Below, one piece after another: positions 3,317 through 58,423 of a stretch of 64,000 nucleotides of DNA. A program made the translations under genes and the position numbers. Under the pieces are notes generated by a model. That model saw only the letters and a program-made list of their open reading frames with translations. It was not told the origin of the DNA and made no database searches. Origin of the DNA: Alphaproteobacteria bacterium (GTDB lineage: Bacteria; Pseudomonadota; Alphaproteobacteria; Micropepsales; Micropepsaceae); assembly GCA_025350465.1 (NCBI GenBank), contig JANXXU010000024.1, forward strand, positions 1 to 64,000, read 5' to 3'. Positions within the stretch are counted from its first letter, which is position 1, and each line of letters starts with the position of its first letter.

Positions 3317-3736
3317 TTAGCGCATGTGCTCCCAAAGTTCTCGCTCTTCGTCGAGACGATCCTGTTCACACCCCTTGATGGCACCGCGGGTCACGACCCC
3401 GAGAATCTTGCCGCCCTTCGCTACGGGCACGTGGCGAAACCCGCCGTCCCACATCAGGCGAAGCGCGTCGATGGCCATTTTGTCGGGCGGCATAGTGACA
3501 GGACTGGGTGTCATCACGGTGCCGAGCTTCGTTTTTTCAGCACCATGGCCATTGGCCAGCACGCGACAAACGGCGTCACGACCCGTGAAGATGCCGATGA
3601 GGCGGCCGTCGTCATCGGTGACTAAGACCGAACCGACGCCTCGCTCGCGCATGCGCTCGCACGCGTGTTTGACCGTAGTGTCCGAAGGCAGCATCAGGGG
3701 GTGTTGATTGTAGACGATGTCCGAAAGTCTTCTCAT
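3317..3736 (-). CDS. CBS-domain pair protein
   Basis: This 139-residue protein contains two CBS motifs (about residues 8-60 and 70-125) forming one Bateman module, which in other proteins binds adenine nucleotides and senses energy state. There is no attached catalytic domain. The start at 3736 is preceded by GGAGAAG, while the longer open frame lacks this support. A near-consensus FNR box lies about 200 bp upstream (3939-3952). Together with the neighbouring alcohol dehydrogenase and cbb3 genes, this suggests a role at low oxygen. The partner protein is unknown. Confidence 0.88.
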   Translation of the reverse strand: MRRLSDIVYNQHPLMLPSDTTVKHACERMRERGVGSVLVTDDDGRLIGIFTGRDAVCRVLANGHGAEKTKLGTVMTPSPVTMPPDKMAIDALRLMWDGGFRHVPVAKGGKILGVVTRGAIKGCEQDRLDEERELWEHMR

Positions 3737-4067
3737 GGGATCTTCTCCAGCTAGGCGGGCCTTTCCTCGACCAAGACGACGCGTTGAAAGAACATCACGA
3801 GTCCAAAAAAGAGCGAACGAAGCCCAACCGGCCACGTTCAAACGGGAATGCACGAGCGCAAGGCTCTGGTCGTGGCTCCGTGCCGTCCGCTCGCCGAAGA
3901 ATCTGAACGCAGACTAACGTCCACGTTGCCGCCACCATTTGAGCCACATCAAGGAATGAAACGTTTGCAGCCTTTAATCACACCGGAGCCCTCCAAGTTG
4001 GACCTGCAGCGGCAATCGCCGGCCGGGCGTGGTGCGTTCACCTTGCGCAAAATGCGACTCTCTGCTC
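3737..4067. other. intergenic region between the CBS and alcohol dehydrogenase genes
   Basis: These 331 bases separate the start of the CBS gene from the end of the alcohol dehydrogenase gene, both on the minus strand. The region presumably holds the CBS promoter and contains the FNR-like box at 3939-3952. I see no convincing small gene in it. Confidence 0.5.
3939..3952. promoter_or_regulatory. FixK/FNR-type box upstream of the CBS gene
   Basis: TTGAG-CCAC-ATCAA matches the TTGAT-N4-ATCAA consensus with one mismatch. It lies 203 bp before the CBS start codon, which is far for direct class II activation unless the leader is long. It is a plausible but unproven site. Confidence 0.45.
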
Positions 4068-54754: not shown

Positions 54755-55537
54755 CTAGCGCCGCATCACGAACGGGAGGGTCGAAGTCAAACCACCGTCG
54801 ACCGGATAGGCCTGGCCGTTGACGTAAGAGGCCTCGTCGGAGACCAAGAACAACGCCATTGCGGCGATCTCCTCCGGATGGCCATAGCGCGCGGTCGGAT
54901 TGAGTTGACCGATCTTGCCCTCGTTGCCGCGGGCGCGCGCGCCGTCAAAGATCGTCTTGGTCATTCCGGTTTCGATCAAGCCCGGGCAAATCGCGTTGAC
55001 ACGCACGCCGGTGCCATAGAGTTCGTTCGCCACGTTCTGAACGAGCGAAATCACGCCCGCCTTTGAAGCCGAATAAGGTGTCGGTCCGGCGTTGGCGCGA
55101 ATGCCGGCGACCGACGCGGTGCAGACGATCGAGCCCTTTTTCTGCCGAATCATGTGCGGCGCGACATGCTTGATCGCCAAAAACGGTCCGATCAGATTGA
55201 CGCGCAAGACGTCCAGCCATTGTTCGACAGTCTGCTCTACCACCGGGACATAGCCGCCGGAGATGCCGGCGTTGGCGTAGATGGCGTCAAGCCCGCCGAA
55301 CTCCTTCACCGCGCGATCGACATAGGCCTTGACCTCTGCCTCGACGCCGACATCGGCGGTCATGGCGAGCGCCCGCCCGCCGGCCTTGGCGATCATTTCG
55401 ACCGTCTCATGAACGGCGTCCGCTTTATCGACGCAGAGCACCGCCGCACCCTCGCGCGCGAAGGCCTTGGCCGAAGCCCGTCCGATACCCGATCCCGCGC
55501 CGGTGACGATCGCCCGCTTGCCCTGGAGCCGTGCCAT
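54755..55537 (-). CDS. short-chain dehydrogenase/reductase
   Basis: This 260-residue classical SDR has the cofactor motif TGAGSGIGRA, the NAG motif and catalytic Tyr-x3-Lys in YSASKAG. The acidic D at the end of the second strand (LCVDKAD) favours NAD. The substrate is unknown. It forms a likely operon with the M20 peptidase gene. Confidence 0.9.
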   Translation of the reverse strand: MARLQGKRAIVTGAGSGIGRASAKAFAREGAAVLCVDKADAVHETVEMIAKAGGRALAMTADVGVEAEVKAYVDRAVKEFGGLDAIYANAGISGGYVPVVEQTVEQWLDVLRVNLIGPFLAIKHVAPHMIRQKKGSIVCTASVAGIRANAGPTPYSASKAGVISLVQNVANELYGTGVRVNAICPGLIETGMTKTIFDGARARGNEGKIGQLNPTARYGHPEEIAAMALFLVSDEASYVNGQAYPVDGGLTSTLPFVMRR

Positions 55538-55670: not shown

Positions 55671-55925
55671 ATGGGGGAGATCCATACCGTCACGCTGGTG
55701 CTTGAGGCCGCTGCCCTTTATGGCGCGACCGGCGTTCTCTTTGCGCTCGCCTTCTTGACTGTCGGCATCGGGCGCATCGACCCGGGCGCTCGCGGCAGCG
55801 GGCTTGGGTTTCGGTTGACGATCCTGCCCGGTGTCGTCGCGCTCTGGCCTCTGATGCTGGTGCGCTGGATCGTCGGCGGCGCGCCGCACGGCGGCGATGC
55901 ACGCGACGATAAGGGTGTGCGCTGA
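55671..55925 (+). CDS. small membrane protein, first gene of the Rieske operon
   Basis: This protein of about 84 residues has two transmembrane helices (about residues 8-30 and 44-62) and a short polar tail. No family was recognised with confidence. ATG at 55671 is used; GTG at 55653 is possible and is nearer to a GGAGG. Its stop overlaps the ATG of the next small gene. The tight packing suggests a subunit of the membrane redox protein downstream. Confidence 0.65.
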   Translation: MGEIHTVTLVLEAAALYGATGVLFALAFLTVGIGRIDPGARGSGLGFRLTILPGVVALWPLMLVRWIVGGAPHGGDARDDKGVR

Positions 55926-56059
55926 TGCGGCGGTGGCAACGGCGCGCTCACTTGTGGCTCTGGCTTGCCGTTGCGGGCGTCGTCACGACAGTGCTCGTCG
56001 CACTGGTCGAGGATCAACCGCGGCTTGGCGAATTCCCGTCTGGCTTTCACCAACAATAG
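55925..56059 (+). CDS. 44-residue single-helix membrane protein
   Basis: This small protein starts with a basic stretch (MRRWQRRAH), has one transmembrane helix (about residues 9-28) and ends in a polar tail. It overlaps the previous stop codon as TGATG and lies 9 bp before the ferric-reductase/Rieske gene. It follows the positive-inside rule. No homologue is recognised, but its position makes it a likely small subunit. Confidence 0.55.
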   Translation: MRRWQRRAHLWLWLAVAGVVTTVLVALVEDQPRLGEFPSGFHQQ

Positions 56060-56068
56060 AATCGAACG

Positions 56069-57118
56069 ATGGCCGCGACATATACTCCCGTCCACTGGAA
56101 CCGACATAAGAAGATCTACGATCTCGGCATCGGCGCCGGCATCGCGCTCTATATAGGCGTCTTCATCGCCGTCGCGAGCGCCACCGGAAGTGCGAGCGCC
56201 AACACGAGTCCCGAAATCCTGATCATCAGCGCGCTTGGCGCCTGTGCCTTCTTCATGCTGCACGTGATTTTGGCGATAGGTCCATTGGCGCGGCTTTCAC
56301 CGGCGTTTCTGCCGCTGCTCTACAACCGGCGCCATCTTGGCGTCAGCTTCTTCTTGATCGCGTTCTCGCACGCGGCCTACGCGACGATCTGGTATCACGC
56401 TTATGGCGTGCTCAACCCGCTTGTCTCGCTGTTCGTTTCGAACCCGCGTTACGACGCGATCGGTTCGTTTCCCTTCGAGTCGCTCGGCGCTTTCGCTCTG
56501 CTCATTTTCTTCGTCATGGCGGCGACGAGTCACGATTTCTGGCTGAACAATCTTTCCGCCGTGGTCTGGAAGAGTGTGCATATGCTCATTTACCCGGCCT
56601 ATGCGCTCGTCGTGCTCCACGTGTTGCTGGGCGCGGCAAGCGGCCATGGCGGCAGCGCGCTCTATGTGTGGACGGTAGCGGCGGGCTTCGCGGCGATCGT
56701 GACACTGCACGTGACCGCCGGCGTCGTTCAATATCTTCGCGACAAATCACACGAGCGGATGATCGCCGTCGGCTGGATCGACGCCGGTCCCGCGCGCGAG
56801 ATTCCCGAAAACTGTGCGCGTGTCGTGTCAGTGCCGGGGGGCGAAGGGATCGCGGTGTTTCGTTATGACGGCAAAGTCTCGGCGGTCAGCAACCGGTGCG
56901 CCCATCAGATGGGGCCCTTGGGCGAAGGGCGCATCGTCGACGGCTGCATCACCTGCCCCTGGCACGGCTGGCAATACGATCCGGCGACAGGGCGCTCACC
57001 GCCGCCGTTCGTCGAGAAAGTGGCGACCTATGACGTGCGCATGGCAAGCGGACGTGTGTTCGTCAATCCCAAACCGAATGCGTTGGGCACGCCGGCCGAA
57101 CCGGCGAAGATCGGGTAG
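56069..57118 (+). CDS. ferric-reductase-like transmembrane domain fused to a Rieske domain
   Basis: This 349-residue protein has about six N-terminal helices of the ferric reductase-like (haem b) type, with candidate haem histidines in FSHAAYA, YHAYG, VHML and LHVLLG. A C-terminal Rieske 2Fe-2S domain follows, with ligands Cys277, His279, Cys296 and His299 (C-x-H-x16-C-x2-H). The domain order predicts electron flow between a membrane haem and a cytoplasmic 2Fe-2S centre. The substrate and partner are unknown. It is the core of a four-gene operon. Confidence 0.88.
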   Translation: MAATYTPVHWNRHKKIYDLGIGAGIALYIGVFIAVASATGSASANTSPEILIISALGACAFFMLHVILAIGPLARLSPAFLPLLYNRRHLGVSFFLIAFSHAAYATIWYHAYGVLNPLVSLFVSNPRYDAIGSFPFESLGAFALLIFFVMAATSHDFWLNNLSAVVWKSVHMLIYPAYALVVLHVLLGAASGHGGSALYVWTVAAGFAAIVTLHVTAGVVQYLRDKSHERMIAVGWIDAGPAREIPENCARVVSVPGGEGIAVFRYDGKVSAVSNRCAHQMGPLGEGRIVDGCITCPWHGWQYDPATGRSPPPFVEKVATYDVRMASGRVFVNPKPNALGTPAEPAKIG

Positions 57119-57121
57119 ACG

Positions 57122-57865
57122 ATGAGCGCGCGCGAATTCTATGTCGGCTATCTGTCGATGCCGCCGCGGCTCAGGTGGACCGTGCGGGGGCTGGTGTTGC
57201 TGTTGCTTGCGCTTGTCGCACTCGACGCGTGGCTTGTCGCGTCCATGCAGCCGGCGGCCGGCAAGGGCACGTGGGCCGACGCGCCGCAGGAATATGCGGG
57301 TACGCTGACGCGCCGGCCCTATCCGATGCTGCGGGTCAAGACGCAGGCGGGAATCAAGACCTATTTGCTTGTGTCGGACGAAAAGCGCGGCGCGGAGGCG
57401 GCGCTGGGCGTCACGCCGGACGGGCCGGTCAAGCTTTCGGGCTTTCCGATCACACGCTCCGGGCTCGGCATGATCGAACTCGCGGCCAACGATGTTGCCG
57501 TCATTTCCGAAACGGCGGCAATCGAAGAGCCCGCGCGCGAGGTCCATGGGACCGTCACACTCGAGGGCGAAATCGTCGATTCCAAATGCTGGCTCGGCGT
57601 CATGCGCCCCGGCGAAGGGCACTTGCACAAAGCCTGCGCCAGCCTGTGTATTCGCGGCGGCATCCCGCCGATGTTCGTCACCCGCGGGCGCGGCAGCGAT
57701 GTGCCGGCACTGATGCTGCTGACGCAAGCCGACGGGAGCGCCGTGCCGCCGGAGTTGATCATCCCGTTCGTCGCCGACGCCGTGCGCGTGACGGGTACCA
57801 TCGAAAAACGCGGCGATCTTTGGGTGCTCAAGGCGGACTTGTCGACGCTGGCGCGCATCAAATAG
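57122..57865 (+). CDS. membrane-anchored protein with Cys-His-Cys-Cys motif
   Basis: This 247-residue protein has one N-terminal helix (about residues 19-41) and an extracytoplasmic beta-rich domain. A conserved-looking motif runs from Cys156 to Cys176 (C-x10-H-x-H-x2-C-x3-C), followed by RGGIPPMF. It could bind a metal or cofactor. No known family was assigned. It starts 3 bp after the Rieske gene and is probably its extracytoplasmic partner. Confidence 0.75.
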   Translation: MSAREFYVGYLSMPPRLRWTVRGLVLLLLALVALDAWLVASMQPAAGKGTWADAPQEYAGTLTRRPYPMLRVKTQAGIKTYLLVSDEKRGAEAALGVTPDGPVKLSGFPITRSGLGMIELAANDVAVISETAAIEEPAREVHGTVTLEGEIVDSKCWLGVMRPGEGHLHKACASLCIRGGIPPMFVTRGRGSDVPALMLLTQADGSAVPPELIIPFVADAVRVTGTIEKRGDLWVLKADLSTLARIK

Positions 57866-57955: not shown

Positions 57956-58423
57956 ATGCATTTTCGTATCTGCGGAATCGATCCCACGCCCTTTCGACAT
58001 TTGTTCGGATTGAGCGATGACGAGCTGACGCGCCACCGCGCCAAGCGTTATGTCGCGGACACCAAGCCCGGTTATCCCTGCCGCATCTCGCTCGAGGACG
58101 CCGAGCCCGGCGAGGCCATAATCCTCGCGCCCTTCGCGCATCAAACAGCGTCGACGGCCTATCAGTCGGCTGGACCGATTTTCGTACGCGAGAACGCGAC
58201 GGTGCGCTTCGAGGGAGTCGATGTCGTGCCGGAGCAGCTCGCCAGCCGCCTCCTATCGCTGAGGGCTTATGACGAAAGCGGCATGATGATCGATGCCGAT
58301 GTCGTGGAAGGCCGTGAGCTGCGCGCCAACATCAACCGCTTCTTCGGCAACGAGCAGGCCGCCTACATCCACGCCCATTTCGCGCGGCGCGGCTGCTATG
58401 CGGCGCGGATCGACCGCGCCTGA
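57956..58423 (+). CDS. DUF1203 protein
   Basis: This 155-residue cytoplasmic protein matches DUF1203, with the conserved YPCRISLEDAEPGE and HFARRGCYAARI segments. The function is unknown. It lies 90 bp after the Rieske operon and may or may not belong to it. Its end is 5 bp from the convergent gene. Confidence 0.88.
   Translation: MHFRICGIDPTPFRHLFGLSDDELTRHRAKRYVADTKPGYPCRISLEDAEPGEAIILAPFAHQTASTAYQSAGPIFVRENATVRFEGVDVVPEQLASRLLSLRAYDESGMMIDADVVEGRELRANINRFFGNEQAAYIHAHFARRGCYAARIDRA

Follow-up and report, generated by a model that had tools for sequence, protein, structure and literature searches.

A conserved four-gene set around a ferric-reductase/Rieske fusion protein

What does a bacterium gain from a membrane haem protein that carries its own Rieske domain and is encoded beside two tiny membrane proteins and an anchored cysteine/histidine protein? 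The question is raised by four consecutive genes, here called A, B, C, and D, in the window: a 64,000-nucleotide stretch of contig JANXXU010000024.1 from an alphaproteobacterium of the Micropepsaceae (assembly GCA_025350465.1). The set occupies 55671-57865, all on the + strand (Table 1). An earlier note on this DNA described a compact membrane redox operon and proposed an electron path from a Rieske centre through haem to an external Cys/His site, in a combination matching no described system. Our analysis partly supports that interpretation. A-D are real, conserved, and undescribed as a system within the literature searched. The reading that we prefer, at a probability of roughly 55%, is that A-D form one inner-membrane complex that would export electrons, with a cytosolic Rieske domain as the entry point and D as the periplasmic acceptor.

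Conservation of the four genes

The genes are closely packed, as the earlier note had observed: the TGA of A and the ATG of B share one base, and gaps of 9 and 3 bases separate B from C and C from D, respectively. A scan for promoters and terminators gave no signal exceeding that of shuffled sequences. The products of A and B are indeed two tiny membrane proteins, and A carries a typical segment, FRLxILPGxxALWPLxL. Pfam and NCBIfam scans gave no match above cut-off for the A, B, and D of the window; the same holds for four relatives of A, and Pfam gave no match above cut-off for relatives of B. In many Bacteroidota, Acidobacteriota, Verrucomicrobiota, and Cyanobacteria, the open reading frame (ORF) matching B runs to about 130-170 residues, longer than the 44 of the window; the extra part would be periplasmic.

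The earlier note allowed that the four genes might not be conserved together; they are conserved together, in the same order, across several phyla. At least 588 stretches of GTDB genomes matched C, some of which may share just the Rieske domain with it; we examined the best 80, all of which match nearly the whole of C. By phylum labels assigned by hand from the record titles, these are 22 Bacteroidota, 20 Alphaproteobacteria, 10 Planctomycetota, 10 Acidobacteriota, 7 Verrucomicrobiota, 7 Cyanobacteria, and 4 others. D follows C in 78 of the 80 loci: 77 were recognised by motif, one of them (L110) as a 95-residue piece, and in another (L062) D lies 1.2 kb further on. At the two loci without D (L075 and L097), the contig ends about 350 and about 110 bases past C.

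Upstream of C, homologues of A and B were sought in 84 loci, namely the best 80, three Rhizobium plasmids, and the window; A was found in 81 and B in 83. Because the first models of A and B had been seeded from the same loci on which they were tested, we added a leave-one-phylum-out check, in which the tested phylum was excluded from training and the training rows were those found by the first search; A was recovered in 81 of 84 loci and B in 81 of 84. The search for A extended 2.5 kb upstream of C: the contig starts nearby in two of the loci where it was missed (L060 and L117), and in the third (L094) an A-like ORF sits 3.1 kb upstream, beyond this range. Given these homologues upstream of C, the tiny ORFs A and B are more than chance.

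Other samples give the same picture. In a set of 61 genomes, the window's own plus 60 relatives, C (full-length or split between contigs) is encoded in 11, and D in the same 11. Seven of 349 evenly drawn Pseudomonadota genomes encode C (E<=1e-45); the same seven encode a full-length D, adjacent to C in every case. On the three Rhizobium plasmids the genes run SDR-A-B-C-D, and the annotation calls A, B, and D hypothetical. No relative of C was found in the viral collection scanned. The C gene largely tracks phyla, though some mixing is seen: on a tree of 63 C proteins, six groups require 8 changes, against a shuffled mean of 36, and Bacteroidota and Cyanobacteria are intact. Two loci join neighbouring genes: in the acidobacterial L116, C and D share one uninterrupted frame of 601 residues, from the C start to the contig end, and in L082 (Robiginitomaculum) A and B are one 131-residue protein in a single frame.

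Gene C and its known relatives

The haem-type transmembrane domain fused to a complete Rieske site, as first noted, is borne out. C matches PF01794 (Ferric_reduct) at 39.9 bits against a cut-off of 28 and PF00355 (Rieske) at 61.5 bits against 20.3. Its Rieske site reads C277-x-H279-x16-C296-x2-H299. These four ligands are invariant in an alignment of 61 C proteins selected for diversity, as are R87, H89, H101, H171, and H184, and the fusion is present in all 61. The AlphaFold2 model has a mean predicted local distance difference test (pLDDT) score of 88.7. Compared by VIA-align, the membrane half has STEAP2 as its best fold match (7tai; Z 16.8, root-mean-square deviation (rmsd) 3.6, 205 aligned) and also matches NOX (5o0t; Z 16.0, rmsd 4.6, 189 aligned), while the soluble half matches the Rieske ferredoxin CarAc (2de5; Z 16.3, rmsd 1.7, 104 aligned).

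The haem ligands can be placed by comparison. In NOX2 they are H101/H115 in transmembrane helix 3 (TM3) and H209/H222 in TM5, and in YedZ and STEAP an Arg replaces the first TM3 haem His (PMC3591440; this paper, PMC11564096, and PMC8238504 are cited for the parts of their text available to us). Set against this four-His pattern, C has three His, with Arg87 at the first TM3 position, fourteen residues before H101; H89 is an additional invariant His two residues past R87. In an alignment with E. coli MsrQ, H101, H171, and H184 of C fall on three YedZ His positions. On these correspondences, an outer haem with H101 and H184 as ligands is expected by homology, and an inner haem site at H171 with R87/H89 is possible. 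Both ends of C, and hence the Rieske domain, would be cytosolic, because Arg and Lys residues lie at the C ends and between helices 2 and 3; this topology was read from the sequence by eye, the hydropathy script having resolved the helices incompletely.

The Pfam scan of C detected Ferric_reduct and Rieske-type domains alone, with no module for nicotinamide adenine dinucleotide (phosphate) (NAD(P)H) or flavin adenine dinucleotide (FAD) and no NADP oxidoreductase domain. The earlier note had kept in view a Rieske protein working alone as a known oxygenase component. We rejected this: there is no mononuclear-iron catalytic domain in C, no catalytic domain in the flanking genes scanned (DUF1203 and SDR), and no oxygenase partner among A, B, D, and these two genes. 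A bc1-type complex was rejected as well; the membrane domain is PF01794, and no cytochrome b family was matched by C or by the other five genes scanned (A, B, D, DUF1203, and SDR). In soluble fold and C-x-H-x16-C-x2-H site, C resembles the Rieske-type ferredoxins of dioxygenases (CarAc, BphA3), whose pattern is without the disulfide cysteines of the bc1 type; it differs from them in being fused to a membrane haem domain.

Among membrane systems, MsrQ/YedZ shares with C the ferric-reductase fold, the positions R77, H91, H151, and H164 of MsrQ, and a gene for a periplasmic partner beside the membrane gene. MsrQ hands electrons to periplasmic MsrP (PMC11564096). However, the membrane domain of C is 24% identical to that of MsrQ; C scores below the NCBIfam cut-off for MsrQ (41.1 vs 130 bits) and has a Rieske domain and the extra H89, and its partner is D, not the molybdoenzyme MsrP. 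Pfam found no molybdopterin family in A, B, D, or the DUF1203 and SDR genes. MsrPQ proper was rejected on the missed MsrQ cut-off and the lack of MsrP among the genes scanned. STEAP is the top structural match of the membrane domain and likewise has Arg at the inner TM3 His position, but C carries a Rieske domain instead of the NADP oxidoreductase domain and has the extra proteins A, B, and D. NOX, bacterial NOX, and long-form ferric reductases share the fold and the outward electron path proposed for C; unlike NOX and long-form ferric reductases, C has no FAD or NADPH domain, and in C an Arg takes the place of the first of the four canonical haem His residues of NOX. In the MsrQ-like flavinylated systems of PMC8238504, the proposed electron exporter is likewise a PF01794 membrane protein; the periplasmic carrier is an ApbE-flavinylated flavin mononucleotide (FMN) protein there and would be D here. 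The word Rieske is absent from the main text of that paper, and a scan limited to A, B, D, and the two flanking genes found no FMN-binding or ApbE gene. The four-gene system would work like MsrPQ or STEAP but belongs to neither.

The closest folds of the membrane domain, STEAP and NOX, also suggest a surface metalloreductase or an O2-reducing enzyme, in which the haem would react directly with Fe3+, Cu2+, or O2 and D would be just supportive. This is unlikely in our view: the NAD(P)H/FAD module is missing from C, and the strict conservation of D, together with its shared frame with C in L116, points to a direct role for D.

Gene D and its cysteine/histidine site

The AlphaFold2 model of D (mean pLDDT 92.2) has an N-terminal helix at residues 15-41, followed by two beta-rich domains. 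Given the N-terminal anchor, these domains would lie outside the cytosol, in the periplasm. The motif reported in the earlier note is present in the window as C156-x10-H167-x-H169-x2-C172-x3-C176; its first His stands less well, since position 167 is His in just 4 of 63 aligned D proteins, again selected for diversity. Invariant in all 63 are D153, K155, C156, G159, M161, P163, H169, C172, A173, and C176, so that the conserved site becomes C-x12-H-x2-C-A-x2-C plus a Met, in the second domain.

The fold of D has no clear family. Matches by VIA-align all have Z <= 7.0, both for the first domain against oligonucleotide/oligosaccharide-binding (OB) folds and for others (NlpE, potempins, HIN-200; CusF 4.9). 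These values are within the range that VIA-align rates common, and D was therefore assigned to no fold family; on our reading of the model, both domains appear OB-like. Foldseek with the D model returned poor matches alone, no credible hit came from PDB sequences when D or its profile was the query (best E 0.81 and 1.2), and NCBIfam had no match in any of the 63 members. DUF5818 (PF19135) was rejected as the D family: the D of the window is unmatched, and the weak matches of 9 of 63 relatives (best 21.3 bits vs a cut-off of 27) cover residues 101-129, outside the Cys/His site.

What would this site bind? In our view copper is the likeliest cofactor, with perhaps one chance in three; the other options are zinc, disulfides, or a [2Fe-2S] cluster ligated by Cys3His. 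Stand-alone matches to the second domain of D occur in 5 of the 349 Pseudomonadota genomes (two without C and three of the seven with C), and a SCO1/SenC gene lies near them in three of five stretches, two of the five having been scanned in part. The adjoining SCO1/SenC genes are a hint of copper. Four such relatives (Table 1) had no Pfam match above cut-off, and a search of plasmids for stand-alone D domains gave no match. A second small Cys-rich protein adjoins the stand-alone relative in L129 and L130. Each of the three Rhizobium plasmids carries one more small hypothetical gene, overlapping the D gene at its end (L038 9859-10071, L039 9865-10074, L040 9859-10071).

The three invariant Cys of D, including C-x3-C, together with the MsrQ-like membrane domain of C, could also point to periplasmic thiol or sulfoxide reduction of the DsbD or MsrPQ kind, in which the D cysteines would cycle between disulfide and dithiol with electrons from C. 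Yet the invariant His and Met beside these cysteines resemble metal ligands, and one-electron carriers are poorly suited to dithiol chemistry without a flavin or quinone. The VIA-align matches listed for D include no thioredoxin-like fold, though such a listing cannot exclude one. We hold a thiol system to be improbable.

Candidate donors and direction of electron flow

In the preferred reading, a soluble donor would give single electrons to the cytosolic Rieske domain of C, which would pass them to b-type haem in the helix bundle; the haem would then pass them to D, anchored beside C, whose second periplasmic domain would receive them at its invariant Cys3-His(-Met) site. D may be a redox carrier for further periplasmic acceptors or a site of metal binding and reduction, most likely of copper, and A and B may be small structural or assembly subunits. 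The path from Rieske to haem to an external Cys/His site, as originally proposed, fits the predicted topology and the single-frame C-D gene, but one His of its motif is unconserved. Outward transfer is favoured, by analogy with MsrQ, a characterised relative that passes electrons outward.

Several observations weigh against this reading. R87 occupies the inner TM3 haem-His position of NOX, so a complete two-haem path is not assured. The three invariant Cys of D could serve as zinc or cluster ligands, or pair in disulfides. The operon of the window contains no copper gene, and the SCO1 count comes from the five stretches mentioned above. The operon itself is also without a donor gene. Both single-frame cases, C-D and A-B, are from metagenome bins, where sequence error is possible. 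Finally, pairwise distances of C and D are correlated (r 0.81 over the 47 loci common to both alignments), which relatedness alone could explain.

Candidate donors are encoded nearby. The fetched flanks of the 80 loci contain a Rieske-fused thiamine-diphosphate (TPP) enzyme of the pyruvate oxidase/acetolactate synthase type (Rieske-TPP) at 20 loci and a Rieske-fused glutamate-synthase (FMN) domain protein (Rieske-GltS) at 18; the TPP gene of Rhizobium is without the Rieske part. Across 247 Bacteroidota genomes, C occurs in 9 and Rieske-TPP in 7, with 4 in common (Fisher p 2.8e-5). Rieske-GltS occurs in 35, including 8 of the 9 with C (Fisher p 8e-7, computed with 36, the number of places in these 35 genomes); the 35 were hand-picked from 44 matching genomes as those where the match reaches the Rieske part. 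Both p-values are too small, because the genomes are not independent. Of the 9 genomes with C, 6 have Rieske-GltS within 5 kb of it and 3 have Rieske-TPP within 2 kb.

These enzymes could be more than donors: the operon might serve them as a respiratory side branch, with Rieske-TPP and Rieske-GltS enzymes feeding the Rieske domain of C and ABCD disposing of the electrons outside. Proximity and co-occurrence favour such a role. Nevertheless, a search of the window's own genome found neither fusion, and both were rejected as obligatory partners on that ground. Of 40 operon-bearing genomes, covering half of the 80 loci, 14 had a Rieske-TPP match; in another set of 8, full-length matches were found in 5, with one genome common to both sets. 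Many Bacteroidota have Rieske-GltS without C. We consider the side branch doubtful, though it deserves a place among the alternatives. In the own genome, a Rieske fusion with a pyridine-nucleotide (NAD(P)H) reductase is another candidate donor, but relatives that lack C have Rieske ORFs near its length as well. A 532-aa Rieske ORF of the own genome was rejected as a GltS fusion, its sequence and Pfam match showing Rieske plus pyridine-nucleotide reductase.

Flow could also run inward, with D oxidising an outside substrate and the Rieske domain feeding cytosolic reductive enzymes. Rieske-type ferredoxins usually donate to cytosolic oxygenases, glutamate synthases are reductive, and the Rieske protein with a Glu_synthase domain is a frequent neighbour. 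This direction opposes the membrane potential, however, and known relatives of the fold run outward, as MsrQ does (PMC11564096); we judge inward flow very unlikely.

Returning to electron export, the fuller proposal is a widespread new complex: electrons from central metabolism, in some phyla directly from the Rieske-TPP and Rieske-GltS enzymes, would enter at the cytosolic Rieske domain and travel via haem b to a new family of periplasmic, OB-like Cys3-His-Met D proteins, probably with copper. We offer it tentatively, as less than an even bet.

Table 1. Coordinates of the four genes, their neighbours, and related features (window positions unless a locus or contig is named)
Feature	Position	Strand	Length or place	Description
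Gene A	55671..55925	+	84 aa, ATG start	ORF; small membrane protein, two hydrophobic stretches (hydropathy)
Gene B	55925..56059	+	44 aa	ORF; small membrane protein, one hydrophobic stretch
Gene C	56069..57118	+	349 aa	Pfam: ferric-reductase (YedZ/STEAP-like) haem membrane domain, then Rieske-type ferredoxin domain
Gene D	57122..57865	+	247 aa	AlphaFold2: N-terminal transmembrane anchor and two predicted OB-like domains
DUF1203 gene	57956-58423	+	90 bases downstream of D	Pfam
SDR gene	54755-55537	-	upstream of A, divergent	Pfam
Rieske-TPP fusion, example	L076 5434-7389		651 aa	
Rieske-GltS fusion, example	L076 2546-4159		537 aa	
Rieske and pyridine-nucleotide reductase fusion	own genome G000 contig C11 188290-188538 (L002 310-1857)	-	515 aa	Pfam
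Stand-alone relatives of the D second domain	L130 3368-3835; L131 3431-3874; L132 3493-3999; L129 about 3443-3838			apparently secreted

The two genes flanking the set in the window recur to different degrees. The DUF1203 neighbour is found again, among 84 clustered loci, in just three close relatives. An SDR gene lies directly upstream of A and co-directional with it in the Rhizobium plasmids and divergent in the window; a link to the operon was left undecided, SDRs being abundant and that of the window divergent. Genes of YHS-domain, LysE-type, DinB-like, TANGO2, and weakly ATP-grasp-like kinds recur near the operon in several phyla (L076 9829-13180; L056, L058, L092, L098). Clustering grouped TANGO2-type ORFs from 17 of 84 loci, and Pfam confirmed five of them. 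Ornithine-lipid-type (OlsB-like) acyltransferase genes lie near the operon in some loci (L066, L070, L120, and others), of which L120 was the one scanned.

How new is the system? The earlier note knew of no described system with this set. The four-gene set is indeed undescribed in the literature that we searched: among the open-literature titles and abstract openings listed, with subscription papers mostly outside the survey, none concerned it. Its parts are more familiar. A 2013 listing of domains attached to the ferric reductase domain includes Rieske (PMC3591440), so the fusion itself was already on record, and MsrQ, STEAP, and NOX are known relatives of the membrane domain. The set would be a new variation on electron transfer by haem across a membrane.

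At least six phyla are represented among the 80 best full-length relatives of C, and almost every one of these has the same partner genes. For three of the four proteins no curated family scores above cut-off, and a function assignment for the set was not found. As a defined four-gene unit with a strict D motif, the set is tractable for deletion and purification. If the preferred reading is true, a Rieske-driven route would join the short list of bacterial outward electron paths.

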